Shown here: positions 1,958 to 58,092 of the stretch, in pieces
Layout: every line of letters starts with the position of its first letter
Numbering within the stretch: the stretch's first letter is position 1
Source: Hydrangea macrophylla
Lineage: Eukaryota > Streptophyta > Magnoliopsida > Cornales > Hydrangeaceae
DNA: 64,000 nt
Assembly: GCA_033977485.1 (NCBI GenBank)
Contig: CM066982.1
Location: forward strand, 34,636,218 to 34,700,217
Direction of reading: 5' to 3'
Translations under genes and position numbers: made by a program
The notes under the pieces: model-generated
Database searches by the model: none
Told to the model about the DNA's origin: nothing
Seen by the model: the letters and a program-made list of their open reading frames with translations, nothing else

Positions 1958-2244
1958 CAGTCGACTGGTTGAGAAAACAGTCGATTGGGGCCTTTGTTTT
2001 CAGCAACTCACTACATTGTTTCGCAGGGGATCAGTCGATTGGGTCCTCGACACAGTCGACTGAATCATGTTTTAAATTCAAATATTTTGTTCAGGCCAAA
2101 CTTTAGTCGACCGGACTTTATCAGTCGACTGAAAATTTGAAGCACCAGTCGATTGGGTGTAGAAAGCAGTCGACTGGATGGTGTTTTAAAATCCAACTTT
2201 CTGCTAGACCAGGATCAGTCGACTGGGTCTGAGGATCAGTCGAT
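1958..2244 (+). repeat. Cluster of ten CAGTCGACTG palindromes
   Basis: Ten copies or close variants (CAGTCGACTGG, CAGTCGATTGGG, TAGTCGACCGG) start at about 1958, 1978, 2032, 2053, 2104, 2122, 2146, 2167, 2216 and 2237. The core 10-mer is a perfect palindrome. Spacing is irregular (about 18-54 bp), so this is not a simple tandem repeat. Confidence 0.9.
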
Positions 2245-2722
2245 ATTCCGCTGCGTGTGTTCTTCAAACTAATTTTTGGGAACGTTAATGAATTGGTTTA
2301 GCCTCGGTGGCGTGCCACGGGCTCCGATTCCGCTATTGTGGGATCGGGCTGTGACAGATGCTCTATCAGATGAGGTTTGAAAATCTGCGCCATTCAGTAG
2401 ACTGCCCGGGAAACTGCTCGGGGCACCCCTCGGGAATGGACCCGCCCCCTTGGCCGCTCGGGGGTTGAACTGGACGGTACTGTTGGGAACCTAGGGTCGG
2501 TGGCTGCCACGTGTCTAGGAATGATTGGTCTGGTTAGGATCCAACGAGGACGGTGTGGGTGTAACCGAATAGTCGCGTGGTAACTGGACTGTCATGTCAC
2601 ATATTTAATGCACACGTCTTTTGAGGTGACGCTTCACGTGCCCAAGGGGATAACTGTCTGGCGGTTTAGGCGGGAAAGTTTCCTGGCCGTTGGATCTAAT
2701 CTGATCTGGACCGTTCACGCTT

Positions 2723-2730
2723 TATAAATA
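2723..2730 (+). promoter_or_regulatory. TATA box of the antisense extra gene
   Basis: TATAAATA lies upstream of the plus-strand coding segments of the Tat extra gene and on their strand. No coding potential is seen at 2357-2720, which fits a promoter region. Confidence 0.5.
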
Positions 2731-2790
2731 ATGGACACTTATCCATTTCTTTCATTCCTGCTGCCCTGAGATAGAGACTATCTAGCGGTT

Positions 2791-5260
2791 TTGAGAGCAA
2801 AAAGTCCCCGGTCAAGCTTCCCGATCTCTTTTCCTGCTTTAATTCTTGTATGTCCTCACTTCCCTAGTTTAATTCACTGTTCTCTTCCTTATCCTTTTTC
2901 TTTTCTTTCCCGAGTGATGCTTGAGAGGGCGAACCCACTAGGGCTCGCACAAAAGTGGGATTTCTTCTTCCTCTTTAGGTCAAGTAACCCATCCTCTGTG
3001 GTAGAGCGATTGAGCCGGCCGAGTTGTCCCGTGGTAGTGTTAACCGAGTGTTACATTGCCCTGAAAGCCTTATACGCCTTGCTCCATAGGCTCTTGGACC
3101 TACCGCCCTTGTACCTTAGGCACGGAGCCCCCGACCCCTACCTAGGCCACCAACTATTACCCTGTCCAGCCTCGGGAACCTTAGAGATGTGCCAGTCCAG
3201 TTTTGATTCCTCTTCTCGGTTGGAGGATGAACATTCCCGGTCTGGGATCCCGGACACAAGCCTGGACCCACCCTCTGCCACTCCGTCAAACCATCATAGC
3301 GAGGGTAGGTTTCCGATCCGGGTTTCAGACGATGAGTCGGACTAGGAGGCCCCGGTGGCCTCCGTCTCATGGGGTTCAGGTGATGAGATACCCGGGGGGT
3401 CCTAACCCCGAGGTTGCATTTGCCTATGAATTCACTCCTTCCATCCTGCGTACCCAAGACCTTAGCCAAATTAGGGAGAGGTATGCCATTCCCAAAGGTT
3501 GATCCTTGGCTGTACATGCTGGCGAGGCCCAGCTCCGTCATCTGAGGTTCGTCTCTTTGTATAAAGATTCCCTCATGGGTGGGTTCCGCATCCCCCTTCA
3601 CCCGGTAGCCTAAGATGTCTTGATCTACCTTGGGATCACTCCCGGGCAGTTATCTCTGAATGGCTGGAGGTTCTTGATGGGGTCCATCTCTCTTTGGCCC
3701 CAAGTCTTCGGGTGTAAACTCACCCTCTAAGAGTTCTTGTGGACCCATCGACTGTTTCCCGTGCATTGGTAGGTCGGTTTCTTCTCTCCGGGGACTCGTC
3801 AGGGGCAAAAAATCATTGTAAACTGCCCAAGAAACAAGGGGCTAGAAGAACAAGTATCCACCCCCGGGCGCTGTGAGCAGGCCCCAGGAATTCAGTTAAG
3901 GACTTCTTGGGCTGGAGAGCCAAGGAGTAAGCCCGTCTGATACTTCTCTTTTTGCTTTCCTTTGCCTTTGAGCATAGTCATGTGGCTAACCGTTTCATGT
4001 TTTGCTTTGTAGTGGGGTAAGATGACCCGCCGAGCATTCCCGATGAGTGCCAAGCCAGGATCAGGCACTTGGCAAACCTGGCCACCAACATCTGGAACGT
4101 GCTAACCCGGACAGGAGATTTTAAGGCCTCCTACGATCCAGACCAGCCCGTCGAAGCTCCTGTCTTTCCACCAATCATCTGAACTATTTGGCCTTGGCCA
4201 TTCTTTACTGCTTTTCCTGGTTACTGACCGTATGATCTTTTCTCTTCGCAGAAATGGGCCCCAGGAGGGATTTGGAGTAGCTAAGGGCCAGATAGGCTAC
4301 TGCTATTGCCGCCGCCACCGCCGTCGCTCAGATAACGGAGAAAGGGAAGAGGCTAGCCGCCAAGGCCTCAGGCAGTGATCGTCTGCTCAGGCGAATAAGG
4401 CACAGGATGGCGGCGCACCAGGAACCCGGGGGGACGTCGGCTCCCCGTGTGGTGGTGGTGGAGGAGACTGCTCCTTGGGCAGACTTACCGTCTGGGACAC
4501 CGCTGGGGGAGTCGGCAGCGATTAGGGAGAGGGCCAGGTTGGGCCTTCTCCCAAGTCAGGTGGAGATGTGTGCAAATATGTCTCCCCAAGTCTTCCAGGG
4601 GTGGCTGTACAGCCTCTCCTACTTCGTAAGTACTTCTGCTACTGTGTTCTTCATTCCTTATTCACTCTGTTTGCTTGGTGACTTACCAGTTTACGCTTCT
4701 TGCAGGTCAGCTGGATGGCTGCCGGAGTTGAATCCTTCCTGCTCTCCCTGGATGGGAGGGCCACTACTGCTAAAGTTGCCTTGTCGCAAAAGAGGGCAGC
4801 CTCTGAGGCCAAGGAGATTACCCTGACCGTTGAGAAGGACAAGGTCAAGGGCTTGGCCCTGGGCCTTGATGCTGCGCAGACGGAGTTGGTGGCCGCCTTG
4901 GCTAATTTGGAGGTTACCCGGGCCAACCTGGCGGCGGCGGCGGAGGCTCGAGAGAAGGCCCTAGCTGAGGCGGTGGTAGTAGGGTCTATAGAGGAGGCCT
5001 TTAATGACGGCTTCTTCCAGGGCTACAAAGACCTGAAGAGAAGGCTAGCCCAAGACCACCCCAAGTGGGACATCTTATCCTATAAGTGGATATACTTAGA
5101 CTAGTGGGACATGGGTTCCGCCGCTGCCGAAGGTGCTATTACTGGGCTGGACCTGCTGCAGATGCCGCCCCAGGCGAGGATGCTGCTCCGGGCGGGGATG
5201 CTGCTCCAGGAGGGGAGGCTGGTGAGATCGAGGATGTGGTCGTGGTGGACGACGCCTAGC
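2791..5260 (+). pseudogene. Antisense spliced extra ORF of the Tat element (Transposase_28-like)
   Basis: Plus-strand exons lie opposite to gag-pol. At about 3557-3710 the translation carries GFRIPLHP, then L-G-I-T-P-G-Q-L and N-G-W-R-F-L, the core signature of the plant 'putative gypsy type transposon' family (Transposase_28), interrupted by a stop. Introns are visible. The best is 4626-4705 (donor TTC/GTAAGT, acceptor TTGCAG), which joins 4407-4625 to 4706-5104 in the same phase. Weaker ones are 3927-4012 and one ending at 4251. The last large exon is a coiled-coil-like, Ala/Glu-rich stretch ending in a conserved-looking DGFFQGYKDLKRR block. An Asp/Gly/Pro-rich tail continues in another frame to TAG at about 5260. 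The N-terminus is uncertain. Stops and frameshifts suggest decay. Function is unknown. Confidence 0.65.
4407..5104 (+). pseudogene. Two in-phase exons of the extra ORF with an 80-bp intron
   Basis: Exon 4407-4625 is exactly 73 codons and ends at GTAAGT. The next exon resumes at 4706 in phase 0 and is open to the TAG at 5102-5104. The joined product would be a hydrophilic, probably coiled-coil protein rich in Ala, Glu and Lys, ending with DGFFQGYKDLKRR and a W-D-I-L motif. The exact phase match, good splice consensus and short AT-rich intron make splicing credible. The conserved C-terminal block is familiar from many plant retroelement-derived hypothetical proteins, but I cannot give it a function. 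Confidence 0.6.
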
Positions 5261-6010
5261 CTCTCTACCTGTCTTTTTTTTTTTTAGGGGAGGCTACTAC
5301 AACTGCCCCCCAAGCTTTGTACATTTTTTTGTTTTTAATGAAAAGGTCCTCTGAGGCCACCCTTTTGCATCAGTCATTTTTCATTGTGTTTCTTTTTTGC
5401 ACTTGCCTGTTTGTATTGCCTGTGCCCGACCGGTTGTTAGTTATACAAAAATCCTGCCTTACCAAAAGGTTTATGACTGTGACTGGTAGAGAACACTTGG
5501 TCTTCTAGGGACCTGTTTTGAAGGGCCTATCTGGTATAGTGTAGGATTTTGATCTTGTTACTATCTGGACGGTTTCTCTGAGCAGTGTAAGTACGTAGGA
5601 ATGTTCGAGGATTCCAAGCCCTGTTAGTGCCCAATGTGATTCCCTGTTTTAGTCCAGCATCCCCCCTGCCCCCCAAGCTTTTGCTAAGGCGGGCATTAGT
5701 AGAGGGATTGATCGTAAGGAACCGACCTAGAATATGGGTGGTTATAGGGTCTTTTTAAGCTTGCTATCATTAGCTACCTAGGGGGATTTACCCCCATTGT
5801 CGGTTATGGACCTAAGCGAAGCCGGTGCCTCGGATGTGAACCCGAGGTCTTCTACCTTGGGTGTGACCCCGAGGTATTTTTTGCCTCGGGTGTTATCCCG
5901 AGGTCTTCTGTGCCTCAGGTATGATCCCGAGGTCTTTTTATTTGTTTGCACGGAACACTGGTAGTGCAACAAAAAAAGCTATATTACTTTTTGAAAATCA
6001 CAATAACTGC
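5261..6010. other. Non-coding spacer between extra ORF and integrase
   Basis: No coding frame is supported. The stretch holds a T-run at about 5276-5285 that could be a 3' UTR or poly(A) region of the plus-strand gene, and the hairpin array at 5828-5936. Confidence 0.5.
5828..5936. repeat. Four tandem CCTCGGG-N6-CCCGAGG hairpin units
   Basis: Four units of about 29 bp, each an inverted repeat such as CCTCGGGTGTTATCCCGAGG (7-bp arms, 6-bp loop), are separated by TCTTCT-like linkers. Arms in individual units carry one or two changes. Confidence 0.8.
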
Positions 6011-7402: not shown

Positions 7403-8230
7403 TCAGGTAAGGCGGGCTAACCGATCGACCCTTGTGTTTTCTTCCCTCAGGATCTGTGTGATGGATAACCCCTTAAGCATCTTTGAGACTATTCGGACTA
7501 GGGCCAGGTAGGCTATCATGTTGTCTTCCCAGGCTTCATACTCCTGATTAACTTGATTGACCATGAGTTGGGAGTCACTGTACCTATGGACTTGTTGTGC
7601 ACCCATCGAAGTAGCTAATTGTAATCCAACCAACAGGGATTCGTACTCTGCCTCGTTGTTAGAGGCTTGGAAACCGAACCTTAGCACGTACTCTAGTTGG
7701 ATTCTGTCGGGTTTGGCGGGCTAACCGATCGACCCTCGTGTTTTCTTCCCTCAGGATCTGTGTGATGGATAACCCCTTAAGCATCTTTGAGACTATTCAG
7801 ACGAGGGCCAGGTAGGCTATCATGTTGTCTTCCCAGGCTTCATACTCCTGATTAACTTAATTGACCATGAGCTGGGAGTCACTGTACCCATGGACTTGTT
7901 GTGCACCCATCGAAGTAGCCAATTGTAATCCAACCAACAGGGCTTCGTACTCTGTCTCGTTGTTAGAGGCTTGGAAACCGAACCTTAGCACGTACTCTAG
8001 TTGGATTCTATCGGGTGTGGTGAGAATGATACCTATTCCACTACCCTGTTTGTTGGAGGATCCGTCCACATAGAGTACCCAGGTTGGGGTGTCAGGTTGT
8101 AGACCGGGCGGTAGAACCGACGGGTCAAGCTCTTCGATCGGATCTTCTGGATACGTGAATTCTACAAGAAAATCTGCTACTGCTTGCCCCTTAATTGTCG
8201 TCCAGGCTCTATAGACTACTTTAAGTTCTT
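7403..8230 (-). pseudogene. pol: Archaeal-type RNase H of the Tat element, internally duplicated
   Basis: The minus-strand translation shows Y-V-D-G-S-S-N-K-Q-G-S-G-x-G, then S-N-N-E-A-E-Y and Y-S-D-S-Q-L-M-V-N. These are the D-E-D catalytic blocks of the second, archaeal-type RNase H that distinguishes Tat elements. It is followed by REENTRVDRLARL. Bases 7411-7714 and 7715-8018 are near-identical copies, so most of the domain is present twice. The 304-bp unit is not a multiple of three, so the duplication also shifts the frame. Confidence 0.85.
7411..8018. repeat. Direct duplication of 304 bp (two copies)
   Basis: Copy 1 at 7411-7714 and copy 2 at 7715-8018 both start GGCGGGCTAACCGATCGACC and differ at only a few positions. 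The copies abut exactly, pointing to a fairly recent tandem duplication. Confidence 0.9.
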
Positions 8231-13020: not shown

Positions 13021-15057
13021 CCTACTCCAAATTCATCTCACCCCGTATGAGGTCGATCTCATAGATTTCCGCCATGTGTAATTCTTATCGTGAAAGACTA
13101 TAGGTCGGCCATTCTATCTTCGAGCATGTGAAGGTGCCTTTGGTGGAAGATAATAAGGTTGACCTCATATTTATTCGGCATTTGAAATTCTTATACTAGA
13201 AAACTAGAGGTTGACCTGTTATTCTTACGGAATGTGCAAAATTTATAGTGGAAGGTATAAGGTCGACTGTTGTTGCTTTCGGCATGTGAAAGTTATGTTT
13301 ATCATACTACGGTGCATATTTTATATTTAATTTTCATTCTTCCAACTTGATTATTCCAAATATTCTAAAAAGCAACATTTTTTTTGTCATGGACACATGT
13401 AAATCAAATAAATAACATCGACAACTCTCCGTTGTTTCTCTCATGGACACATCTCAATCACATTGGCATGGAATTCTAGCATCAAGAGCACATTCCCTTG
13501 ATGTGATGCCAAATCCATATGGAGTTATATATCAAATGGATACTTTCAACACCACCTTCGAGTCATTCCCTCAAACAATCAAAAGTCATTTGTGTTGTTT
13601 CGAACATACGATCATTAGTAGGAACCCTATAAGAGTAGAGACCATATATATATATATATATTCACATCCAACATGGACATCTTAATTTGTCACTTTAGAG
13701 ACTCATACAGTACTGTATTAGTATATGATCTTCATACTACCGTGTTACTAATTAGATCAGACATGTTTCTCCTAGTATGGACGCAGTATAATAACAGTTG
13801 AACAATGGTCTCCTCAATTCTAGGTTTTGTAAAAGAGTTTCATAAACACTTATTGCGTGATTACTAATACTTAATAATTATTGGCTCATATACTATGTTA
13901 CTATTTAGATCAGATATGTTTCTCCAAGTATAGATGCACTATAATAATAGTTGAACAATGGTCTCTTCAATTCTAGGTGTTGTATAAGAGCTTTATAAAT
14001 ACTTATTGCATGATTACTAACACTTACATGTCAAATAAGCGATACGTATTACTACCACTTGTACATCCGACATTTTGTGAATGGGTTACAATATTTTGTG
14101 ATGGAGAAAGGACTAGGTTACAATTTGTTTTCTTTGAGGTTGCAATATTTTGTCAATAGTTTACAATCATTTGTCATCAATGTTACAATATGAGTGACTA
14201 GTTGTGGAATTCAAACTTTTTGTAAACTTAGTGACAAAATATTATAACTATACCACAAAATGTTGTAATATGGAGAAAAAAGATTGTAACTTGGTCATAG
14301 AATATTGTAACTTTTGTGTATGCATGAACCTCAACTTTTTCTTTGTCTCCTTTATCATCAAAACATTATATTAAGTATAGAGTACATAATTACAATAATA
14401 AAGACTTAAAACAATTATAATCCATAACCTTATCTTATTCCGGCATATAAAGGTGCCTTGATGGAAGATAGGAAGGCCGACCTCGTATTCTAGGTGTTGA
14501 GAATAGTTGAGCAATGGTTTCCTAAATTTTAGGGATTGTAGAAGAGTAGCATAAACACTTATTGTGTGATCACTAACACTTACATGTCAATTAAACATAT
14601 AGACTCATATACTGTGTTACTATTTTGATCGAACATGTTTCTTTAATTAGCGACCCCACTATGATAGATGTTGAGCAGTGGTCTCCTTAATCCTAGATGT
14701 GGTACAAGAGCTTCAAAAATAATTATTGCGTGATGACTAACACTTACATGTCAATTGAACATATATACTCGTGTACTATTTTACTATTTAGATCATATAT
14801 GTTTCTTCAAGTGAGACCCACCATGATAATGGTCTAGAACTGTGCACCCAAGTAGAGACCTATGAGCAAGGAGAACTTGGAATGGAATACTACCACCCAG
14901 AGCACATTCATTTGGTGTGAGACTCATATATCACTGTGTTAATATATGATGAAAATAATGTTGTGTTACAATTTAGATCTTTAAGTATATACCCACTATG
15001 ATAACAGTTCATGAAATTGTCTCCTCGATTCTAGATGTTGTATAAATAAACACTTAT
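13021..15057. repeat. Mosaic of diverged short repeat modules, left part
   Basis: No gene is seen. Three module types recur. One is about 60 bp with GGTCGACCT...GGCATGTGAAAG (four copies at about 13050-13310, one at about 14440). One is about 150-190 bp with AACAATGGTCTCCT...ACACTTATTGCGTGATTAC (copies near 13800, 13960, 14520, 14690, 15030). One is a GTTACAATATTTTGT word (14085-14310). The same modules resume after 20358, so the insertions in between are younger. A (TA)n run lies at about 13650-13668. Confidence 0.75.
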
Positions 15058-17090
15058 TATAGACACCCCAATTTTGACCAAACTATCAAACTAAGGGGAG
15101 AATTACCTTTGGATGTAGTGATGATATTGTCTGGCATGATTCGACAATCTTCGAAGGATGCTTCATGAACTTCTGAAAGCTCTACAACCTATTTTTTGAG
15201 CCAAAATGACCAATGGTCCCTAGGATGGCATTCCGATAACTTTTGAGTGAAAATACGCATGATAGAGAAATAAGAATGCATGAGATAATCCTTAGATCCA
15301 AGGGAAGAGATTCAAAAACTCAATTATCTTATTTTTCCATTATTATTTTTATTAAAAGAAAAGTACGAATTTAAAGAAAAAAAAATTAAGAATAATAGCT
15401 TTCCAAGTTGAATTTAGTTTGTTCTCGGCGACAATACCTTTCCAAAGGTATTTAATTTGTCATTTTGTTCTAGAATGAGTTAGATAATGATTTTCAAAGG
15501 ATGGAATAGAAAAATAAATAAAGAAAAAAATAAAAAAATGATAAAAAAGGGAAAGAGCCGGCACTCGGTGCCGCAGACAACTCATTGAGTGCTGCTCTGG
15601 GCACTGTTTTGAAAAATAAATTATTTCTAGACCTCCTTAGATCTCTAGAATATCCCAAATGACCCCAAATCTTTAGTGTTTACTTAGCACCCTTAAGTCA
15701 CATTTTACATGCTGAGATCATCCTAAAAGGACTAATTTGCCCCCTACTTCAATGATTCTATAAATATAGACTTTCTTCAAGAGGGGAGATTGAACTTGAA
15801 TCAAAGATTTCAAAGAGAGAAAGTGATGAATTCATATTGTTTTGAATAACTATAGTCTTTGAAGATCAAAATCAACCAAAAACAAGAAGAGTTTTGATCC
15901 AAAAACAAGAAGGGAAGAATAGTTTGAAGAAAAGTTATGAAGATTGATCCATTCTAATCAAATTCTCTATAAATTTGAGTAATTCTAGAGGTAATTCTCT
16001 CCTCTTTGATTTTATACTTCATATTTCAATCACAATTTGTCGATTACTAGGACTTTTTCACATATTGGAAAGTCCACTCCTCATCCTTTCTCCACACACC
16101 ACTTGACCAAATTGTAATTGGATTATCATGAATTGTTGTTGATTTAGATCAAGATGCTTATCTAATCTGTATAAAATATGTTTTTCAATTAAAATCTAGT
16201 CATGGATGATCCAAATTTGCTTTGATTTCACCTTTTGTCTCTCATGCTCTTTTCTTGGAATTCGTGAAATCTTCTATATTCCATTTGAATTCCTTGAGAT
16301 TAGATCCTCCAATTCTCTGTAATTTCATGATTATAAGAGGATTAGAGTTGATCTAGATCATATGTATGAATAATTGATGGATCTAAGTCTACGACCATGT
16401 CTTTGGTTCATTCATTTGAAGCTTGTGAAACTCTCTATGTTTCATTGTGTTGTATGGAAATTGAGTTCTCAATCCTAAAGGATCATATATTTGGGAGAGG
16501 AATTAGGGATGGATCTAGTTGAATTCATGAGTAGATCATTAGATTCAAGTGAATTCAAGTGTTTAAGTTCATTCATAGGATTGAGTAAGACCTTAGAACC
16601 CATTTCTAGATTCTCTCATAAGGTTTATGTTTGGATTCCTTCAAGGCTAAATCCATGAATTTCTATGATATGCAAGTGATATTGTGATTGACTATAATCA
16701 TACTTGATCTATATTCTCCATAGAATTATGGATCTAGTTTGGTTTGAATCATGAACACTAATTCATCAATGGTGTAGTGATTAGAATGATAATTTGTGAT
16801 CAAGGATTTTTAATTAATCATGATCTATTGGATTTGAATGAGACTAATTGAAGTGTGTTCATAACACATAGATATACCACTGCAAATTTTATTTTGTCCC
16901 AATTAAGTGGTTTAGATGGTTTGATGATGGATTTTTTGAACAAGTCATTTTCTGTCCAGAATTCCAGAATAGTGAACTCATTTTAAAATGAATGGTTTAG
17001 AACATTAATTGAACTATTTTTTTTCCAAAATATTTTTCCCATTAACTCTGATGAGTTAATAAAAATCTCTGAGAAATTTGAGTGTCTTAG
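15058..17090 (+). repeat. Tat-like LTR fragment, 5' part
   Basis: It begins TATAGACACCCCAATTTTGA, matching the start of the LTR at 49751-52599 (TGTAGACACCCCAATTTTGA on its own strand) apart from TG to TA. It has a TATA box CTATAAATATAG at 15758-15769 and palindromic GGCACTC words 150-200 bp upstream. Homology to the other LTR can be followed to about 17090, where a Copia remnant intervenes. Confidence 0.75.
15758..15769 (+). promoter_or_regulatory. TATA box in Tat-like LTR fragment
   Basis: CTATAAATATAG is about 700 bp into the LTR. It is equivalent in place to the CCTATAAATAGA box of the LTR at 49751-52599. Confidence 0.5.
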
Positions 17091-17371
17091 GGTTGATATG
17101 CTATTTTACGCTAATCTCCTTGTGAATACTTTGCAATAATCCTTGCTGTATGAACTTTTAGCAGCCACCACTAGATGATCTTCACTCCTATGACACTGGT
17201 GGAGGATGCTTGCAAGAAGAATAGGACTTGTGAGAGTCCTTCCATGAGAGAGAAAATGCCAAAAGAAAACCGTAAAACTATTCTGGAGAGTTAGAGCAAG
17301 AAAAATGACGTTCTGAATAATTTTGCACGCAACTCTCCTATTTATAGGTTTTCTAACCGACCTAAGGTCCA

Positions 17372-18953
17372 ATCGATTGCCAAGAATGGCAATCGATTGC
17401 CTTATCAATTGATTGCTAGTAAGTCCAATCGGTTGCCTATGCAATCGATTACTTGTCATGCCAATTGATTGGTTCTCATTTCTCAAAACTTTTTACATCC
17501 TGTCGAGCTAAGACTGGGACCTCTTAGGTTCTTTATTGTTGGCTTAGATCAGTCATCTATCTCTTATACCTCTATCTTCATAGATTCATCTCTTGGTTTG
17601 GTCACCTTTGAATCCATCTTCATGGACTATCGGTTTGCTTCTTCATCTTCATGGACTATCCTATTGTATTACATTGTCCTATGCCTCTTTCGAAGCTTAC
17701 AATTTATCTAGAAAAGGAAAAATAATAATAGCCTTGGGAAACTGGTGCGACTTTCCTTTTCATAGGAATGAAGTCGCAATGCCCTTTACACATGCCTTAA
17801 TACCAAACCAAAACATAAAACACTAATCTCAAATTTAAACAAAAATTTAAAGCTTGGTGCTATGGGAGACAACTGTCTAGTCCTTGCTGCAAAAGGTTAG
17901 ATGATGCAAATCCTCGCAATATATATAACAATATATAAACTAGAAGTCCTAGATGAAATGTATACTTCATAAATTAGATTCACGAAGCATTTAGTCTTAT
18001 AAAATAGTAAATTGCATTCTCTGTTCAACCCAATCGATTGGCATAAATAGCCAATCGATTGCTTCTACCAATCTATTGGATGAAAGCAGTAATGAAAAAT
18101 TTTAAAATTTGTAGAAACTGTTTATGAAAACATTGTCAGACTAATAAAAATTTTAGAGAACAGTTTATAGATAAAAAAGTGAAAATAAATTGAATCTATA
18201 TGCCAATTGATTGCATCCCCAGATCAATGCCAATTGATTGTATTAAACAGCAATCGATTGCCATTTCCAGATCTATGGAAATCAATTAGATAAAGACCCA
18301 ATCAATTGCCTGGAGCCCATCGATTGCCTTTGGTATCTTTTTGATCCAGAATATTACAAATCTATTTCTATAATCTAAATGATCATAGAAACACGTTTAT
18401 GTAATTACAGTTTTACAAAAAGACTAAAACTACACATGCTAACACATCTAGTCTTCCAAAATATGTTAGTAGATTCGTTATAAGTATGGCTCTAATACCA
18501 ATTGAAGGAAATTATGTTACAAAAAACATGTTGCACAGTGGAAGATTTAGTTTCAAAACTTTAAGTAATTAGGAGCTACTACTTATTTGGAAACTAGAAA
18601 CATGTAGGAGAGTAGAATACCTTTTACGCTAATCCTTGTGGATACTTTGCAATAATCCTTGCTGTATGACTCCAGTGGATGCTTGCAATAAGAATAAGAC
18701 TTGCAATAGTCCTTCTATGAGAGAGAAAAGGCCAAAAGAAACCCCTAAAACTGTGTCTGGAGAGTTGGAGCAAAAAAAAAGTGTCGTTCTGAATAATTTT
18801 GCATGCAACTCTTATATTTATAGGTGTTCTAACTGACGAAAGGTCCAATCGATTACCCAAAGTGGCAATCGATTGCCATGCCAATCGACTACTAGTAAGT
18901 CCAATAGATTAATCGATTGCCTAAGCAATCGATTGGTTATCATGCCAATCGAT
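17372..18953. repeat. CAATCGATTG palindrome clusters (three groups)
   Basis: Groups lie at 17372-17472 (truncated LTR, upstream of the minus-strand TATA at 17338-17347), 18030-18327 (leader) and 18845-18953 (5' LTR, upstream of its TATA). The consensus is GGCAATCGATTGCC. Variants change symmetric positions, for example CCAATTGATTG. Confidence 0.85.
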
Positions 18954-19934
18954 TAGCTTCTCATTTCTCAAAACTTCTTACATGCTGTTGAGCTAAAAGT
19001 GGGATCTCCTAAGTTCTCTATTATTGTCTCATATCAGTTATTAATTCTCATGATCAAACTCTTTGATCTGCAAATTAACCAAATGATCAGTTAACGTTTA
19101 CTCTACTAACACATGATATCTGCACTCCAACACAAAAGAACATATTTGAAGCGATAACTAGACTTGTATAGTTGTACTAATGTCCCTCTACCTTCAACAT
19201 TCGTAATCATATTCAGGTAGTCAGATAAAATATTACTGTCATCCTAAAAAATGATTACTTCTTCCATACCTTGAGCTTTATTCACCTTTCATACTTACTA
19301 AACATGTTGATAGCTACTTATCAGCAAGACTATAGTTCTCAGTAATCAACTTGGTGACATTCTCAAGGCAATGCTTACTCTTTATCATAGGGTAGATTCT
19401 ATCTTGACAATATATGTTCACAACCCTATGAACATGACATACCTAAAACACCTAGGTGTTGATCTTTTAGACCTCACTGATTGGTAAGTCAAAGCACTAA
19501 TATTCACAGTCTTTGTCCATAATCGTCTCAAGATTAAGAACACGTACCTCATACAAGTTATGGGTTTCTATCTACTAATGATAGTTTAGGTGTCAATAGA
19601 AAAGCTCATGGTCCATCAATGCACTATAAGCACTAGCATATTAACTAAGAGTCTCACACTCTAGTGCTTAAGATTCATCACTCCATCCAATGGTAGTTTA
19701 CAATGCTATAGTGTATACCTGATGAGATATCCAGTCTCATCATCTATTGTGACAAGTTCGAAGCATTAAAGAATAGTAATTCGTATCTCATGCATACACA
19801 AATTACCTACTATAATATTTAAGGATTACAAACAATCATCTCATGAATCATACATAATGAAATGTAAACTAATATCCATATGTAAAACGTTAATCTCTCA
19901 TGCATAGAGTAATTGTTTGAGGGCATAATCCCCA
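18504..19934 (-). repeat. 5' LTR of the Copia-like remnant
   Basis: Plus-strand limits are TGAAGGAAATT (18504) and ...GCATAATCCCCA (19934), so on its own strand it runs TGGGGATTATGC to TTCCTTCA. It has a minus-strand TATA box (CCTATAAATATAAG, 18811-18824) with CAATCGATTG palindromes at 18845-18953 just upstream. The PBS abuts the left end. Other parts show no coding potential. Confidence 0.7.
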
Positions 19935-23417: not shown

Positions 23418-23429
23418 CAACCCCCAACT
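23418..23429 (-). other. Athila polypurine tract
   Basis: Minus strand AGTTGGGGGTTG directly precedes the 3' LTR. The second Athila copy has AGTTGGGGTTTG at the same place. Confidence 0.8.
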
Positions 23430-27006: not shown

Positions 27007-27015
27007 TGCGGGGTC

Positions 27016-27363
27016 CTGAAAATAGAAGAAATACAGAATAGAAATCAAAACAAGAAAGAAAAGAAAAGAAACTGAAACTGCTTGTGTTCGACCGATCGAA
27101 CAATGTTCGATTGATTGAGAAAGGACAGAGTTCGATCGCTCGATACTCTTTCGATCGATTGAGAAAGGGCTGGGTTCGAGCGATCGAACCCAGCTCGATC
27201 GATCGAGCACAGCGAATGTGCAGTAACCACTTTCGAGAACAGAAAGGGCCCTCACACACACAAAACAAGACAAAACTAAAAAGGAACAATTTTGAAAACC
27301 AATGGGGGGCACCCCCACAAGAAATGGAACAAATTGGAAAGAGGGGGTGACTTTAGGCCTTAC
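27016..27363 (-). other. Putative leader intron of the env-position gene
   Basis: Minus strand donor GAG/GTAAGG at 27363 and acceptor TTCTATTTTCAG ending at 27016 give a 348-bp intron. The first exon (about 27520 to 27364) has no ATG. The start codon lies 9 bp into the second exon. The intron holds a second palindrome cluster at 27087-27215. Confidence 0.55.
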
Positions 27364-33131: not shown

Positions 33132-33224
33132 GGCTTTAGCTTGTTCATGATTAGGGGGACCGTTGTTGTATCCCTTAGGGTTTTGAAGTGGTTGGGCAGG
33201 AAATGTTCCACCCGATCCCTCTTG

Positions 33225-34625: not shown

Positions 34626-34742
34626 GAACGAAGAGAGTTCCTAAGGAGAGTGTTTTACCTAAAGGACTAAAAGAAAAAGGAAAATAAAAGCAGAAAAAGA
34701 TTAAGAAAGATTGAGGTAACCTAAGAATTAACTCGTCGCCTT

Positions 34743-34760
34743 CCCCGGCAACGGCGCCAA
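34743..34760 (-). other. Athila primer binding site
   Basis: Minus strand TTGGCGCCGTTGCCGGGG, the typical Athila PBS (tRNA-Asp type), 5 bp inside the 5' LTR. Confidence 0.9.
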
Positions 34761-34765
34761 AAACT

Positions 34766-39010: not shown

Positions 39011-39159
39011 ATCAAAATGAAAATTCTAAAATGTTAAACCAAGCACAGAAATGCAAACAAAATTCACAGATAATTTCATATATTACAGCTCGTAGAAAAG
39101 TATAATAGGGTTTATAGGGGTTATAACTCTCCATAAACAATAAAAAGATTTCTTCCTCA

Positions 39160-43218: not shown

Positions 43219-43875
43219 GATTTAACACGCAACAAAAAAACAAGTCTATAAAACTTAATTAGCATGCCCGAATCTACTACTTATTAACTCTATAGATGCG
43301 TACAAGAGAGGGACAAGAGTTATACTTTTAAGTTTTGAACCCATTCTAAAATCTTTGATTTCCAGTAGCCTCCACTAGATGTTCTTCACTCTTATGACTC
43401 CTTTGGATGCTCCCGGAGAGACTAGGGTAGGACGAAATACTAATAAAGAGGATAAGAAGGCTAAGGAAATCCGAAAATAGTTCCTGTAGCTCTGGTAGAG
43501 AAAAATGACGATTATTTAATTCTATACGCAAGTGCCCTATTTGTAGATTCTCAGAACTAGCTTTACCTTCAATCGATTGAAGTGGCTTCGATCGATTGAA
43601 CATTGTTCGATCGATCGAACTTGCCTTGACTTCAATCGATCGAGACTACTTTGATCTATCGAACCTGTCTTGACAAGATCCTCTTATGCCTTTCCAAGCA
43701 TCCTAGTGGAGCTAAGAGAGGGACCTCCTAGGTTCTTTATTGTTGGCTTAAATCAGTTGTTAATTCCCATGACCAAACTCTTTGATTAGCAAATTAACCA
43801 ACTGATCAGTTAATGTTTACTCCACTATAAAATGATAAATGAACTCCAACGCAAAAGAACATATCCAAAGCGATG
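43219..43875 (-). repeat. Copia-type LTR fragment, second copy
   Basis: Shares an ordered series of blocks with 18612-19150: TCTTCACTC...GACTCC, GAGAAAAATGACG, CTATTTGTAG, GGACCTCCTAGGTTC and CCAACTGATCAGTTAA. It is truncated at both sides. At the palindrome position (43570-43662) it has TTCGATCGATCGAAC and TTCAATCGATTGAA in place of GGCAATCGATTGCC. Confidence 0.7.
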
Positions 43876-45527: not shown

Positions 45528-47036
45528 TGGTAGCCAAGTGTAGGTAATCGTGCAAGTAGTAATTTGGTTAAGACCAGGTCGACCCCACAGGGAAGGTGTT
45601 GAACTAAAAACTTAGATTAAACTCTAAAGGTAAAGGAAAATTCAAGATTTAAAACAAGGTGTAGAACACGAAGTTCTACAGACTATAACTGCTAGAGCAA
45701 ATAAAGTAAACTAATGATTAAGTAATTAATGAAAGCAATATTTTAAAGGTGGTTGTCTTTATATAAAGGGAATGTTGGGAACACACAAATCTGCAGCGAT
45801 CATACCATCTACCATGCAGTTACATTTAAGCTCTAAGGAGTGTATCTATCTACAATATTCTGTATTTTCTAAGGATAAAGAATCAATAGTCCTTTCATGG
45901 CCGGGACTATATCATCACAGTTAAATCGAAACACTTGAAAGCGGTTTAAATCAATAGTTAAGTCTCGCATTTTGAATGGTGTTAGCATTCAAAATGGTTT
46001 GCAAAAGTTATTGAAGAAAAATGCCTTAAGGCTTAAAGAAATGAAATTGTTTTGACAAATTGAGCATTTGGGGACAGTTTGATAACAAATCTCAAAAGCA
46101 GAGAGTCTTGGAATACTGCAAAAGACACCTCAAGAATCTGATAATTCGATCGATCGACGCGCTTTCGATCGATCAAAAATCATCATCTCTCGAGCGATCG
46201 AACAGTCTCGATCGCTTGACTATGCGTCTGCTTCGATCGATCGAGTGCAGGTTTTATACTACTACATGGCAGAGGCTAGAGATCACTGTTTTATCATGAT
46301 CTCCTAACCTGGGGACTACTCAGACATGGTCTGGAGTGTCACAGATTTGTTTTTAACGTAAAAATCCATTAAAGTCTTGCTTGGTTGAGTTTTAATCATG
46401 TAAACTAAGAAAACTATGTTTTAACCATAAACGAGCATGCGAGACTATGATTACCACTACTTAAACTATGCGAGATCACTAGTAGAATGTAAAGAAACTA
46501 AAATAAAAGAACCTGGAATGTTGTATTAAGATTAACTTGCTGTAAATTCAAAGTAATCAATGACAAACCATGAAAAACCTACAAGAAACAAGGTAAACTC
46601 TCTATCTCTCTTTATAAACTGATGAAAAACAATGTGGGTCTCTCTGGGACATAAATAAAATGCATATAAGCCGTGTTCGATCGATCAAACATCACTCGAT
46701 CGATCTAACTTCTGGAATCTTAGAGCGCTTTAACTATCTTCGATCGATCAAACTCTCGATCGCTTGAGGGATCTTCGATCGCTCGAGACTCGCTTTTCAT
46801 GTTTGAATTGTCTTCCTTAAAATCCAGCAACCCTTTTATCCTGCTTATTCATTTCTTCACACAGCAAGCAGTGATCTGCACAAATTATAGCTAAAACAAT
46901 ACAACTTATCATAGATTAATCATATTATGTAAAAGATGGCATTGTAATCCAAATTGCAGATATATAAAGGAATTGTAGACTCAGTGTATTTTCTTCTTTT
47001 ACCACAGTTGTATTTTACAAATACCCCCGCTTGTCA
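45528..47036 (-). repeat. Athila-type solo LTR, related subfamily
   Basis: TGGTAGCCAAGTGTAGG (45528) to ...CCCCGCTTGTCA (47036) aligns along its length with the Athila LTRs, including the LTR interior near CCTTTCATGGCCGGGACTAT and two TCGATCGA clusters (46146-46250, 46675-46795). No PBS, PPT or coding sequence adjoins. The flanks do not form a clear 5-bp duplication, so one edge may be eroded. Confidence 0.8.
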
Positions 47037-49750: not shown

Positions 49751-52599
49751 TGGATATCGCAATTTTTCCTACCCACAACTTTTCTTTTAAAATTCTTTTA
49801 AATTTCAAATTCAAAACAAATGAGTCGCCATTTAATTTTTTAAAGGAAAACTAAGAAACCATTTCAAAAGGGAATTGATCTTTTGCGAAACCAAAGATTG
49901 ACTAGGTTCGGGGATTATGGAATGAGAGAGGAAGGAGCCCGTTAGACTAAAACACCCTCTCTCATCCTATCTTGCGATAGGCCTCTAATCAACATCCTTT
50001 CAATCGAATTATTAATTTAAATGTGCCCTCAACTAATACATATGTATAAATATACATTACAAAAGCATGTCTAAAGGGTGTAAGATTGCAAGTTATAAAA
50101 TATCATTCAAAAGCCATGTATTTCAAGTAGCAAGCAATATGATATGCAAATAGGGAACTAGAGAACTTACCCGGGATCCGGCCGCAAATATTGAACGTGC
50201 AAATGCATACAAATAGATAAAACCTAGGAAAAGAGTCTCTAATCCATATATACAAGTAAAGCAAGTCCTAATTCTAAGGTGTCGCGCCTGAAGTCGAAAA
50301 TCAATTAAAATCAAAGAATACAGTAAACTAGAGAGGGGTTGAGAAATCGTACCTCAATAGCGCTACAAAATAGAGGTTAGTGCACATAATATACAAGATA
50401 TAAAGTTGGATCTTAAATAACAATCCTAGACTTCTAGCTTTAATCTATCAAGTGTAATTAAATCTAAAGCGAACAAGTCCTAATTACAAACATCAAGCCA
50501 CATGGATGAATGTATACATGAACAAGAGTAAATTATGAAATATTCATTGATTTGTATCACTTAAACTTTGAATTCAAGTTTAATTGATCATTATTAAAAC
50601 ATGGTTTGAGCCCTAGGTCATAGAAAAGTCATTTGGACCATTATTTACAAAGTTGGTCAAATTTGTCATAAAATTCTAAAAATTACAGAGAGCAGACCAG
50701 AAACTAAAAGAAACAAAAAGCATGCTTCCCATGGTTTGATGTCGGTGAATTTTGGACACAAGATGCCTCCCATCCCGAAAAGAAAATCAACGTTTCAACG
50801 GTTAGATCTCTGGGAAATGGACAAAATCCAGACGTCACTAAGAGATTTACAAATCTCTGTCCAGAGATTTTGTACGATTTTTTAAAAATAGTAAAAAAAT
50901 CAGAAATGCTTTGGTCTTTTTAGGGTAGCTTCCTAACACATTAAATACCTATAAAAATTTATTTTGGATCAAGAAAGCTTGATTAAGGTTCTGGTTTTCT
51001 TATTTCAAAAGAGTGTTACTGTTCTGAAACTCTGGACAGATTGTAGTGACTTCACAAAACTCATGACCAAACCACTTTAAACATGAAATCTCCTTAAAAC
51101 AAAAATTTAAGTGCTAGAACTTTGAGTTATAGACACTTTCCCATTGGTTTCACTTAATTCCAACGGTAAAATTATCAACTAAAAACCTATGATCAAAAAC
51201 AGTTTGTGAACTCACTGCTCCACTATTGGGCTTATCACCATTTTGTTACATCTATCAACAAAGCCATGGGTATTGGCTTATCCTAAACCTAATTCTCCTT
51301 TCCATTGAGGGTCATTGAAGATCAATACATGAGTAGTGCTCATGAGATTTCAAGAAATATAAAAATGATTCCATAGAAACTCTAAGTTAGAGAATCCAAA
51401 CCATGGTAGGGGTTTGGATTCATCTACTTGTTCTTAATGAGATGGTGATCAAAGTATGACTCCCATGTGAAGCATAAGCTTACATGAGCCTAAAAGTTCA
51501 AACTCATGAGATTTAAGTGAGATATGAAAGATCCCCAAGAGTCTTAATAGAAAAGCATAAACAAGAAAAAGAAAAGAAGAATCAAATAACTAGCTCATGA
51601 ACTTCAAGATAAAATAGAGAAGATCCCATGAAATTCCAAGTTAGAGAATCCAAGTCATAAATATGGACTTGGATCCATCTATTTGTTTACAAATGATGAT
51701 CAAGCTTTGGCTTCCATATGAAGCATAAGCTTACATGGAATCTAAAGATCAAACTCAAGAGCTTTAAAGAGAGATATTGAAGATCTCCAAGAACCTCAAG
51801 AGAAAAGCAAAAACAACAAGAAGGAATGAAATAAAGAAAACTAAGAGAGCAAAGTGCTCTAAATCCATAAAAGAAAACTAACAAGAGTAGAGTCTCACCT
51901 CCAACTATCCTCAAACTTCTATATTTTGAAGATCTTCCAAGCTATTCTTCAAGCTCTCAAAACTCTCTTTTCCCCAAAATTCTTTTTGTTTTTCTCTTTA
52001 AAATTCCCCTCTCCTAAAAATGTGTAGTAGTTCTCCCAAAAAAAAATCCCTTGTAATGGAGTATTCACCCTCTATTTATAGGCAAATTTTCTGAAGGGTA
52101 TTTCAGTATTTTCAAGCCAAAAACCCTAACTTCAGATGCACTTTTGAAGGTATAAAACGTGTTGTATAACATCTGGCTACTAAAAAAATGCGGCACTCAA
52201 TAGAGATGGAAGCGGCACTCAGTAAATATCGTTACGGCATTCACTGACTGCCGGAATGGCATTCAATGAATGCCGCAGATAACTCTAGGGACTGCCGTCT
52301 TTTCTGGAAATCCATTTTTTTTATGGCACTTGATGTAAAAATGCGGCATTCAGAGAATGCCGTCTGACAGTCCAGCGACTGCCGCAGCGACAGCCCGTGA
52401 CTGCCGTGAATGGGTTTAATTGCCGTTCTGCCTCTCTTTTTTCTTTTCCTCTCTTTTTGCTTGTTATTTAGGTTGGAGAGTCTTTCGAAGAGCTTGAATT
52501 GTCCTTGGAAGTCCTAAATAAGTTCGGACATTGTCATCATCGGATATGGAGGTAACACTCCCCTTAATTCGACGTTTGGTCAAAATTGGGGTGTCTACA
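49751..52599 (-). repeat. 3' LTR of the Tat-like element
   Basis: Plus-strand limits TGGATATCGCAATTTTTCC and ...GGGGTGTCTACA, 2849 bp. The first kilobase matches 62985-64000 with few differences. A minus-strand TATA box CCTATAAATAGA lies at 52071-52082 and a palindromic GGCATTCA/TGAATGCC cluster at 52191-52407 just upstream of it. Frames inside are not genes. Confidence 0.9.
52071..52082 (-). promoter_or_regulatory. TATA box of the Tat-like LTR
   Basis: CCTATAAATAGA on the minus strand, about 520 bp into the LTR. It matches the box at 15758-15769 in the related fragment. Confidence 0.6.
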
Positions 52600-53640: not shown

Positions 53641-54080
53641 TAAATTCGGGGTTAATCAGACTCAAATTCATTTCAATTTTCAAAATCGGGAGTCAATCAG
53701 ACTCAAATTCTTTTCAATTTTCAAAATTTGGAGTCAAATTGACTCAAATTCTTTTCAATTTTCAAAACTTGGAGTCAAATAGACTCAAATTCTTTTCAAT
53801 TTTCAAAAGATGAGTCGAACAGACTTAAATTCATTTTATTTTTCAAAACCTGGAGTTGAACAGACTCAAATTCATTTTATTTTTCAAAACCTGGAGTTGA
53901 ACAGACTCAAATTTATTTTATTTTTCAGAACCTGGAGTCGAAGAGACTCAAATTCATTTTATTTTTCAAAACCTGGAGTCGGACAGACTCAAATTTATTT
54001 TATTTTTCAAAATTGGGAGTCAACCAGACTTAACTCAATTTAATTCAAAATTTGGAGTCAGTCAGACTCGATTGTTCTCT
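53641..54080. repeat. 41-bp minisatellite with GAGTC/GACTC arms, left block
   Basis: GACTCAAATTC starts at 53659, 53700, 53741, 53782, 53822, 53863, 53904, 53945, 53986 and 54027, an almost exact 41-bp period. Each junction reads GGAGTC-N5-6-AGACTC, a short inverted repeat. Open frames here are repeat artefacts. Confidence 0.95.
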
Positions 54081-55247: not shown

Positions 55248-55595
55248 ATGAGGGACGACGATGTTCATTCCATAGGGTCATGGGCTGATTCAGAATATCC
55301 TAACCCCCCTTAGACTGTCGACACAATAGCATTATATTTTTATCCTTATCAAGGACCAGGGGCAGAAGATGTAGTGGACCTAACCCATGGGTACATCCCT
55401 TTTAACCCTCCTCTCCTCCATATCAATCCATTTGAGCACATGAAATTTCCTGAAGAGGAAGGAGAACCTGAAGGGTACAATGTTGGGGAAGTGGATGATG
55501 CACTGCTGGAACAATGGGAGAATGACTCAATGTGGGAACCGTGGAAAGAAGGAGTCCAGGTTAAAAAAAATGAGAATAGAGGATGGTCGGAATGA
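55248..55595 (+). pseudogene. Acidic accessory ORF, second copy
   Basis: ATG at 55248, 13 bp after a CCTTGCAG acceptor. It aligns with 28910-28550: HSIGSWADSEYPNP, NPFEHMKFPEEEGEPEG and NDSMWEPW are shared. TAG at about 55311 replaces the Trp codon of the other copy. It ends at TGA 55593-55595 after a divergent basic tail. Conservation of the acidic core across two diverged copies suggests it was once a real protein. Confidence 0.6.
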
Positions 55596-55599
55596 AGTG

Positions 55600-56466
55600 A
55601 AGAAGAAATTACTACACTCAATCACATGCTAAAGATGTGCAATTTCTTACCCTTTCATTTCTACCCTACTATATAAAATTGTACCGAAAAGTCAAAGCCT
55701 TAATGATTTTTAACAACTTAGTTAAAACACGAACGTGTAATTTGAGTTATCCACGGTATTTCGCTCCTCTAGTAAGTAGTATTCTTTTCTTGAGACTTTG
55801 CACTCTAAATGTTCGTCTTTATTGAGTCAGGTGTGAAAATATTAGTAACCAAACTTTTAATTTTTATTAAAGCTTTCACACCATGTGTGATCATTATTAA
55901 CCAAGTTTCTATGAGATGTTCTTTCTTGAGCGTAAAACCATGTGAGAATTGAGTTGAAACTACAAGTTCTGAGAGTATGATAGTCTAAACAACTCTAAAT
56001 AAAGTTTGATGTATAGCTGTTAATTTCACACACACACACGGATACATGGATGTGATACATATGTTATTCTTTCTTGGTGGCATGAGGAACATATGTATTT
56101 CTTTCATGGTTTGAATGAGGATGATATGTTTTGTAGAGCTAAATTAATAGTTGAATAGAAGAGAGTGTTTACAAGTTATTATATATCTTTTTGATCTTAA
56201 AATCAGAGAATTTTTTGGGTACATTCACTGCAACCCCTCAATAGACAACACTCGTCCACTAGGGGGAACCTAGGGGTTTAACGGCTTGTTGCATTTGCTA
56301 AATACAATCGCGATTCTTGCGAAAGTGAGTTAGGTAGTTTCTTTCGTGTTATTTTAGTTTAGTCTATCTGAGTTTATTTTATTTCATTTTAGTCATTGTA
56401 GTAGTAGTTAGCTTGTTTTATTTTCGCTCTATTGCTAGGGACTAGCAAATCGCTAGTTGGGGTTTG
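55600..56466 (+). other. Athila 3' UTR, second copy, with PPT
   Basis: Homologous to the complement of 23418-24210. No coding potential. AGTTGGGGTTTG at 56455-56466 is the polypurine tract. The sequence jumps from the acidic ORF straight into this UTR. Confidence 0.75.
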
Positions 56467-58092
56467 TGACAAGCGGGGGTATTTGTAAAATACAACCGCG
56501 CTAAAAGAAGAAAATACACTAAATTAGTTTACAATTCCTTTGTTCATCTACAATTTGAATAGCAATGCCAGTTTGTACACAAATTGATTAAACTATGATA
56601 AGTGATATTGTTTTAGTGGTTATTTGTGCAGATTTCTATTGATGTGTGAAGAATTGGATGAGAATAATAAAAGGACGTGCTTGGTTTTAATGAAGACAAC
56701 TCAGTCATAAAAAGGAGGTTTCGAGCGATCGAGGTTTCGATCGATCAAACTCTGCTCAAGCGCTCGAAGATCCCAGACGTTCAATCGATCGAGAGGTGTT
56801 CGATCGATCGAACATGGCTTTTATCATAAATAACGCGCACGCAGCAGAAATAGAGTTTTAACCCTAGCATTAGGTTATTGTATATATAGTCGTATTGTAT
56901 ACGTCCTAAGGACGCCCACTTTTACTTTTTATCAGTTTCATACAGGGAGAAGAGAGCTTCTTTTTATTTTTGTAGGTTTTATCAAAGATTGGTATTGTCT
57001 GGCTTGAGTTCTCATAGATTAATACAAGTCATCTTTCCAGGTTACTTTGTATTACTTTACTTCTATTCTTCTCATAGTTTATTATAGTTCAATCTGTTAA
57101 ACTAGTGGTTTTGAATGTTAGATAAGTTTACACCATTAGTTTTCATAGTTTTTATGTTTAAAATACAACCAAACAAGACCTCAATGGATCTTTATATTAA
57201 AAACGACTCTGTGATACTCCAGACCATGTCTGAGTAATCCTCAGATTGGGAGATCACAATGAAACTGTGATCTTAAGCCTCTACTATGCAGCAAAATAAT
57301 CCATGTGTTCGATCGATCGAAGTTATATCGATCGATCGGAACAGAGACATTGTCGAGCGATCGAAGACATTTCGATCGATCGAGAGATGAAAATGTTCTA
57401 TCGATCGAAAGCGCGTCGATCGATCGAACTCTCTGATTCTTGAGAACATTCTATGCAGTATTTCTAGACTTTCTGCTTTATAAATTTGTTATCAAACTGT
57501 CCCCAAATGCTCAGTTTGTCAAAACAATATTTAAACTTAAAGCCTTAAAGCATTTTTCTTCAATACATTTTGCAAACCACCCTCAATGCTAACACCATTG
57601 TAGGTGCGAGTCTTAACTATTGTTTTAAACCGCTTTCATGTGTTTCAAACTTAATTGTGATGACATAGTCTCGGTCATGAAAGGGCTATGGATTCTTTAT
57701 CCTAAGAGAAATACAGAATACTGTAGAAGATGTGCTCCATTGAGTTTTAACGTAATTACATGGTAGATGGCTAGGTCGCGGTGGATTTGTGTAATCCCAA
57801 CATTTCCTTTATATTAAGATCAACACGTTTTAAAATATCGATTTAATTAATTAGTTGGTCATTAGTTTAATTTAGTTTAATTGATTTCTCTTTTGTAGTT
57901 GATAAACTGTGGAACTTGGTGTTCTACATCCTTTAAAAATATTGATTTTTATTTTCCTGTTAGAGATTAATCTAGGTATTTAGTTTAACATATTCCCTGT
58001 GGGATTGACCTGGACTTTACCAGATTACTACTTGCACGATTACCTACACTTGGGTATAGCACACAAGCGCACACAGAAAAATTCTCGTGTCA
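56467..58092 (+). repeat. Athila 3' LTR, second copy
   Basis: TGACAAGCGGGGGTATTTG to ...TTCTCGTGTCA, 1626 bp, reverse-complement homologous to 34766-36370 with more divergence than the pair has with each other. TATATATA at 56881-56888. Palindrome clusters at 56723-56816 and 57306-57434 flank it. Confidence 0.95.

Follow-up and report, generated by a model that had tools for sequence, protein, structure and literature searches.

What are the clusters of short palindromes that recur in the retrotransposons of one stretch of the Hydrangea macrophylla genome, and what kind of molecule might read them? The stretch (the window) comprises 64,000 nt of contig CM066982.1 in a 2.22-Gb assembly of 19 contigs. 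A sequence-only reading had assigned palindromic words to several long terminal repeat (LTR) families in it, and the names Athila, Copia, Tekay and Tat are labels taken from that reading. With a probability of about 0.7, the arrays are in our view promoter sites at which dimeric, sequence-specific proteins bind DNA. They have the look of a docking code for paired regulatory proteins, common to several elements and open to exchange between them.

Scored against shuffled sequence, the excess of palindromes in the window is real. Perfect even palindromes of at least 10, 12 and 14 bp number 134, 63 and 30 (AT runs included), with 67, 18 and 5 expected from 200 global dinucleotide shuffles and 72, 19 and 5 from 200 local ones; for the longest class, the 30 compare with 5.0 +/- 2.2 (global) and 5.2 +/- 2.3 (shuffling within 500-bp blocks). 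A scan blind to the words found a palindromic 8-mer at least six times, with at most one mismatch, in 29 of 319 windows of 400 bp, where 0.17 would be expected. Of these, 27 coincide with places named in the sequence-only reading or with arrays of the same word that it had overlooked, namely two internal Athila arrays (27087-27207 and 27561-27671) and an array at 43568-43663 that we call Copia2, the other Copia-labelled region being Copia1; the last two fall in an AT-rich tandem repeat (53.6-54.2 kb). Repetition itself is unexceptional: 41 windows hold some 8-mer at least eight times, the top word is palindromic in nine of them, and several of the non-palindromic top words are register shifts of the same arrays.

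The individual words stand largely where they had been placed. TTCGATCGATCGAA, the Athila word, occurs seven times in the window, CAGTCGACTG five times within 1958-2225, and CAATCGATTG, the Copia1 word, nine times, seven of these in 17370-18935; in the Tekay-like region, CTTGATCGATCAAG occurs once (37985), and TTGATCGATCAA is also found at 37971, 38327 and 38993. The exception is the Tat word at 15557-15612, where both GGCATTCA and TGAATGCC are absent and a related CGGCACTCGGTGCCG is present, so that the Tat word rests on 52191-52406. Four of the five words are centred on TCGA, as had been stated.

Beyond the window, TTCGATCGATCGAA has 101,717 copies in the genome, compared with 8 of a control in which the word is read backwards (itself palindromic), and CCAATCGATTGG has 28,527 compared with 29. 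In a spread sample of 29 hand-placed, non-random stretches (L001-L020 and L041-L049; 272 kb over 19 contigs), CAATCGATTG was found 69 times at up to one mismatch (control 5), TTCGATCGATCGAA 38 times at up to two (control 3) and the Tat word 19 times at up to five (control 1). In the same sample, CAGTCGACTG (7, control 4) and TTGATCGATCAA (0, control 2) show no excess, which suggests that the two corresponding arrays of the window are rare. When L001-L020 were scanned for palindromes, a count of six was reached in 31 of 980 windows and in none of 980 shuffled ones; from a list judged by eye, with two cases inspected, arrays of ATCGAT words make up 21 of the 31 and other repeats the remaining 10. 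Palindrome clusters are thus a real, genome-wide feature, of a kind earlier described in Sireviruses.

Spacing within the arrays had been called irregular, at 18-55 bp, a description that we reject: it is quantised. Among 102 neighbour spacings of at most 80 bp, measured around 20 places hand-picked among about 100 listed perfect sites, all on C1, exactly 19 bp occurs 50 times, 25 bp 20 times and 16 bp 10 times; 5 more are at 18, 4 at 44, 3 at 23, 3 at 24 and 7 elsewhere, with six spacings above 80 bp (124-147 bp) omitted. One place, L037, is an exact duplicate of L021, and without its 7 spacings the counts are 47, 20 and 10 of 95. When perfect sites serve as anchors (L001-L040, L037 included), a site-like 14-mer stands 19 bp away on 41 of 88 sides, and at offsets of 44, 35, 25, 16 and 38 bp on 21, 7, 6, 5 and 2 sides, respectively. 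Offsets of 18, 24 and 29 bp occur on one side each, and none of the 88 sides has a site at 10, 13, 14, 17, 20, 21, 22, 26, 27, 28, 30, 32, 41 or 50 bp; the 10 matches each at 15 and 23 bp are those predicted by a 4-bp register shift of the word. The spacers themselves are nearly free in sequence. Between loci, distinct 5-mers are 0.280 identical (0.251 expected) and 11-mers 0.264 (0.260 expected); Copia2 and Athila spacers compare at 0.242 (0.264 expected) and 0.264 (0.253 expected), and 5-mer spacers within one array are at chance (0.244 against 0.264, 18 pairs). This combination of fixed length and nearly free sequence is the strongest single support for a constraint that would be geometric and act at the level of DNA.

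Variation among the sites points the same way. The main site set was picked by resemblance to the word; the half-site set holds 48 Athila-type sites (96 halves), with Copia2 included and the 3' LTR of the first Athila element excluded. Within the half-site, A5 is kept in 96 of 96, C7 in 94, T2 in 92 and C3 in 89, and positions 1, 4 and 6 are variable. Sites chosen by position only (19 bp from a perfect site, at most five mismatches) keep A5 in 55 and C7 in 49 of 56 half-sites. Changes in 62 sites, a few of which are isolated chance sites, are mostly one-sided (86, with 15 two-sided), and the two-sided ones are not above chance (12.5 +/- 2.7). Halves re-dealt among sites are equally symmetric (P 0.17 for the 48 sites, P 0.68 for the anchor-based sites). 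Both observations are as independent recognition of each half-site predicts. Palindrome columns are 91-93% identical among LTR copies, compared with 72-78% in flanks within 40 bp, despite their richness in CpG.

The arrays and the landmarks around them in the window are as follows, with spacings in bp.

21890-36370, minus strand: Athila element, 5' LTR at 34766-36370 and 3' LTR at 21890-23417, the LTRs 93% identical
36048-36117, minus strand: array A of the Athila 5' LTR, upstream of the TATA box (spacings 19, 18, 19)
35973-35978, minus strand: TATA box of the Athila 5' LTR
35431-35550, minus strand: array B of the Athila 5' LTR, downstream of the TATA box (19, 24, 19, 25, 19)
34742-34759, minus strand: Athila primer-binding site (PBS), an exact match to a tRNA-Asp pattern
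23095-23164, minus strand: array A of the Athila 3' LTR
22555-22631, minus strand: array B of the Athila 3' LTR
46676-46787, minus strand: array A of a second Athila LTR (45531-47036)
46145-46245, minus strand: array B of the second Athila LTR
56720-56812, plus strand: array A of a third Athila LTR (56467-58093)
57308-57428, plus strand: array B of the third Athila LTR (19, 25, 19, 25, 19)
43568-43663, minus strand: Copia2 array, the Athila word inside Copia1-like flanks (19, 19, 25, 19)
18844-18957, minus strand: Copia1 array of CAATCGATTG, upstream of a TATA box at 18822 (20, 16, 28, 16, 20)
18489-18500, minus strand: Copia1 PBS-like site with one mismatch (3 matches in the window, 4.3 expected)
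18029-18328, minus strand: Copia1 array downstream of the PBS-like site
17368-17473, minus strand: second Copia1 array (20, 16, 20, 16, 20)
38991-39006, minus strand: single TTGATCGATCAA site of the Tekay-like LTR, where relatives have array A
37969-38355, minus strand: array B of the Tekay-like LTR, five sites of the same word
52191-52406, minus strand: Tat LTR array of CGGCATTCANTGAATGCCG (22, 22, 22, 87, 44), TATA at 52080; the LTR-start pattern is not above chance
1958-2225, plus strand: CAGTCGACTG array of nine sites, mostly pairs 18-21 bp apart (20, 54, 21, 51, 18, 24, 21, 49)

TATA-like words lie 22-111 bp from the Copia1, Copia2 (TACAAATA), Athila and Tat LTR arrays and about 330 bp from the Tekay-like array.

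From the geometry and variation of the sites we infer the following mechanism. Each palindrome would consist of two half-sites, with a core of ATC/GAT in the commonest words and outer bases that set specificity. The palindromes come in pairs separated by 19-22 bp, roughly two turns of the helix; for the Athila word such pairs recur at 16 or 25 bp, an arrangement in which adjacent dimers could make contact. The arrays lie on both sides of the LTR TATA box and, in the Athila element, precede a third open reading frame (ORF) as well; their probable role in these places is to drive or enhance transcription, both at the LTR and at an internal promoter. The sites for dimeric proteins that had been suggested earlier are thus supported indirectly, through fixed spacing, unrelated spacers, independent halves and a near-invariant core.

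Several points weigh against this reading. Many of the sampled stretches are related copies, 70-94% identical to one another, and hence not independent, so that the sampled arrays are in part copies of each other; and picking sites by similarity favours an invariant core. The 11-nt spacers within one array are 0.48 identical (3 pairs), showing that duplication has played some part. A spacing of 16, 19 or 25 bp does not correspond to an integral number of helical turns. Conservation is modest, with between 10 and 149 of some 1600 sets of shifted columns doing equally well, and the arrays are predicted to fold stably as RNA (z -1.8 to -7.5). The array at 1958 has no nearby TATA box, a scan downstream on the plus strand giving only words at distances above 350 bp. 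The analysis yielded no protein that would recognise ATCGAT.

Stable folding leads to the other explanation offered in the sequence-only reading, that the palindromes form hairpins in leader RNA (or in extruded DNA), where a pair with a 5-nt loop gives a 14-bp stem that could feed small-RNA silencing. Predicted folding is indeed strong, as all 14 tested arrays fold better than the shuffle mean, and 12 of them score below the 5th percentile (-2.4) of a set of 36 control windows; stable RNA folding is inevitable for any collection of palindromes. Neighbours 19 bp apart pair slightly better than re-dealt ones (11.5 of 14 positions, compared with 11.34 +/- 0.11), although not significantly (P 0.08; P 0.13-0.57 in the 48-site set). 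The substitutions, however, ignore base pairing: beyond the predominance of one-sided changes, 26 of 36 inner substitutions (strand unassigned) do not keep a wobble pair, and A5 is nearly invariant in both site sets although a change from A to G would preserve the pair. Moreover, arrays also stand upstream of the TATA box, and a hairpin does not require spacers of exactly 5 and 11 nt. Maize Sirevirus palindromes are small-RNA hot spots, according to the accessible parts of PMC10760457 and PMC5311732, and this excess favours hairpins; on balance we regard them as an unlikely explanation of the arrays.

It is slightly less likely still that the arrays attract a host repressor or CpG methylation, rather than an activator. 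CpG observed/expected ratios are suggestive, at 1.9-3.0 in the Athila and Copia2 arrays (flanks 0.3-0.8) and 0.8-1.2 in the Copia1, Tekay-like and Tat arrays (flanks 0.3-0.6), but the array at 1958 equals its flanks (0.96 and 0.97), and a selfish element should lose such sites, yet they are many and better kept than their surroundings. Neutral tandem repetition, with the palindromes as remnants of a single duplicated pair, could account for the periods of 19, 36 and 44 bp returned by Tandem Repeats Finder (71-84% matches) as well as for the similar 11-nt spacers within arrays. Spacers between arrays are nevertheless near chance identity while their lengths are fixed, separate arrays of one element share a word, and between copies the word differs in all arrays; we consider this origin very improbable. 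Binding by dimeric proteins remains the explanation that we prefer, and the distribution of words bears on which protein that might be.

The sequence-only reading had given each family its own word, which does not hold: Athila and a Copia-labelled family have TTCGATCGATCGAA in common, and words vary among copies. The Copia2 array consists of the Athila word, and its flanks are homologous to those of the Copia1 array, which has CAATCGATTG (83% over 169 bp on one side, the TATA side being alignable too). Copia2 LTRs also occur in L009 and L018 of the spread sample; half-site position 4 is mostly G in L009 (7 of 8) and mostly A in L018 (14 of 16), and in the window's Copia2 array it is mixed (4 A, 6 G). 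A comparable switch is seen in L004, L007 and L017, which form one LTR family matching the window's Tekay-like region (L004 at 39135-39585 and L017 at 39170-39313, both 69%; L007 linked via both). Each of these three has two CAATCGATTG arrays (offsets of about 345-525 and 957-1208); the window copy has TTGATCGATCAA instead, with a single site at 326 and an array at 977-1348. Separate arrays of one element mainly use the same word, as in the Copia2 group, where an array after the PBS and one before the TATA box agree (L034 and L053; L023, L050 and L022), and in Copia1, where the arrays before the TATA box and after the PBS-like site are both CAATCGATTG. Arrays can be impure; Athila array C, for example, includes one CAATCGATTG.

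With palindromes masked, the 19 distinct stretches with the Athila word divide into Athila LTRs (6), Athila sequence before the third ORF (4, and a weak one, L032), Copia2 (3) and unmatched (5). Among the unmatched, L034 and L035 have a PBS pattern and L023 sits after one; L021 is a further family, with two arrays about 650 bp apart (L051). By its coordinates, L027 lies where array D of Athila would be expected beside L028. The masked comparison found no similarity outside the palindromes between word-sharing families. No coding frame is attributable to the Copia1 or Copia2 arrays, and for this reason we limit the claim of sharing to families that appear alike only in their palindromes and do not extend it to superfamilies. 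Within L009, the Copia2 match stops partway through its array, at position 6962, and beside the broken LTR, at 656-5042 on the minus strand, lie gag, reverse transcriptase, two RNase H-type domains and integrase in Gypsy order; as far as can be told, these frames belong to another, Gypsy-type element. A Gypsy-type frame in L004 (RT_RNaseH, integrase, SH3_Tf2-1) ends just before the arrays. L007 has a Copia-type gag-integrase frame at 3622-5808, about 1.2 kb past the matched stretch, which may be part of the same element or of another one.

Two observations on C1 concern the sampled copies. At C1:337200-339300 (L052, L034, L053), a Copia2 LTR is followed by a PBS, an array-bearing leader of about 0.9 kb and LTR-like sequence again, which looks like a short, gene-less element, as Copia1 does. 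In the ranges of about 12-430 kb, 512-950 kb and 1.02-1.46 Mb, site positions recur with an offset of about 500-504 kb and once more in reverse order, suggesting a large duplication with an inverted copy, or an assembly artefact.

The Athila element of the window uses its word a further time, inside the element. Its domains (Retrotrans_gag, RVT_1, RT_RNaseH, rve, Integrase_H2C2) run in the order gag, reverse transcriptase, RNase H, integrase, which is that of Gypsy elements. Beyond them, in this order on the minus strand, come array C, a TATA-like word, a leader, a donor-like site, array D, an acceptor-like site and the ATG of the third ORF.

27561-27671, minus strand: internal array C, an inverted copy, in part, of LTR array A (spacings 18, 16, 19, 25, 19)
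27549-27555, minus strand: TATA-like TATTTAA adjoining array C, loosely kept in L003 and L011 (TTTTGAAAT, CATTTAAAC)
27359-27366, minus strand: donor-like GAG/GTAAG, cut at 27364/27363 (GAG/GTAAG in L003, GAG/GTAGG in L011)
27087-27207, minus strand: internal array D, within the putative intron (19, 25, 19, 25, 19), partly present in L003
27015-27022, minus strand: acceptor-like TTTTCAG/G, cut at 27016/27015, before the ATG at 27006-27004
25575-27006, minus strand: third ORF, broken, with a basic stretch and a possible coiled coil (judged by eye)

Array C matches LTR array A with a local score of 71 in inverted and 37 in direct orientation, and 0.17% of 3000 nulls reach 71; it is also present in L003 and L011. 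A module found in both orientations beside promoter-like stretches is how an enhancer would be expected to look. The acceptor-like site is seen in the window only, as L003 diverges before it and the L011 stretch ends before it. For arrays C and D ahead of the third ORF, a candidate gene in the env position, an internal promoter and splicing are both possible readings. The third ORF itself has no Pfam match, and no homologue at E 0.01 was found among 800 candidates. As an element-private transcription factor it was rejected on these grounds, and because the word is common to another family, although we keep it as a minor possibility. On the opposite strand to the Athila gag frame, 34012-34118 (plus) matches the Rfam C/D small nucleolar RNA snoR71 above the gathering score.

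Since unrelated families share a word and copies of the same family differ in theirs at matching places, a host protein family, or a single factor that serves elements of several families, is a likelier reader of the arrays than a protein that each element family makes for itself. A fuller proposal, which we put forward tentatively and at somewhat less than even odds, is that a small vocabulary, an ATCGAT core with exchangeable outer bases, is read by paralogous dimers on a grid of 19, 25 and 16 bp. Unrelated LTR families would converge on this vocabulary, a lineage would switch its word in all arrays together as its trans-acting partner changes, and Athila would reuse the code, inverted, for an internal promoter of the third ORF. 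If this is true, unrelated retrotransposons depend on the same reader proteins, and the question of what activates plant LTR promoters comes down to a small number of DNA-binding proteins. As one word alone has some 100,000 perfect copies, the arrays could be both a large sink for those proteins and a source of regulatory sites, and the internal array bears on how env-position genes of plant elements are expressed.

Other repeats were noted along the way. L008:4400-4890 holds an array of a different kind of palindrome, of the GACGAAATATTTCGTC type. In the window, tandem repeats of about 40 bp lie in or beside nested elements at 53657-54069 and 58570-59191, a 304-bp tandem duplication (96% identical) occupies 7411-8020, and several copies of a related repeat, about 90-400 bp long and with 70-87% identity, lie at 13732-14833 and 20440-20835.

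How do the arrays compare with known systems? The VANC anti-silencing proteins of VANDAL elements read family-specific clusters of short motifs in the non-coding parts of their elements and alter expression. The window arrays resemble these targets as family-specific clusters of short motifs; unlike them, they have one word that serves unrelated elements, and the analysis turned up no counterpart of VANC, which the element itself encodes. That the word is common to another family speaks against an element-private, VANC-like protein as its putative reader.

The closest counterparts are the repeated motifs (RMs) of Sireviruses, so that the arrays are not, as the sequence-only reading had supposed, without a described precedent. 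As set out in the accessible text of Bousios et al. 2010 (PMC2829016), these are dyad words present in 8-32 copies per element, with a different word in most elements and with CpG islands; they cluster 5' of the TATA box and, where an element carries ENV, mainly ahead of that gene, and the authors propose a regulatory role, including support of an internal ENV promoter. The same text cites predicted splice acceptors in Athila, treats 'classic' elements of Ty1/copia only, and reports a CGG-CCG core in 12 of 13 RMs, the RM of Tnd-1 lacking it. A palindrome-rich regulatory region is likewise known in maize Sirevirus LTRs (Bousios et al. 2016, as summarised in the accessible parts of PMC10760457 and PMC5311732), and the former cites five studies of other elements, whose regulatory regions are marked by arrays of repeats that are palindromic in some cases. 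Arrays of such kind are detailed for Sireviruses only in the literature compared here, as far as its accessible parts extend. No report of them in Gypsy elements was found among titles and abstract beginnings in the open-licence literature, and among the matches listed for the words themselves none is on retrotransposons by title. That Gypsy hosts, the grid, the shared vocabulary and the swaps were not found in print is weak evidence of novelty.

The window arrays are like Sirevirus RMs in their dyad symmetry, in their many copies per element and in standing upstream of the LTR TATA box (at 22-111 bp in Copia1, Copia2, Athila and Tat, and at about 330 bp in the Tekay-like LTR), and the Tnd-1 motif, ACAATCGATTGT, contains the Copia1 word of the window (accessible text of PMC2829016). 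They differ in that the CGG-CCG core appears here only in the Tat word; in their Gypsy hosts (Athila by domain order, the Tekay-like element by the integrase frame of L004); in their fixed spacing grid, the accessible text of PMC2829016 giving no spacing rule; and in the use of one word across unrelated families, together with changes of word within a family.

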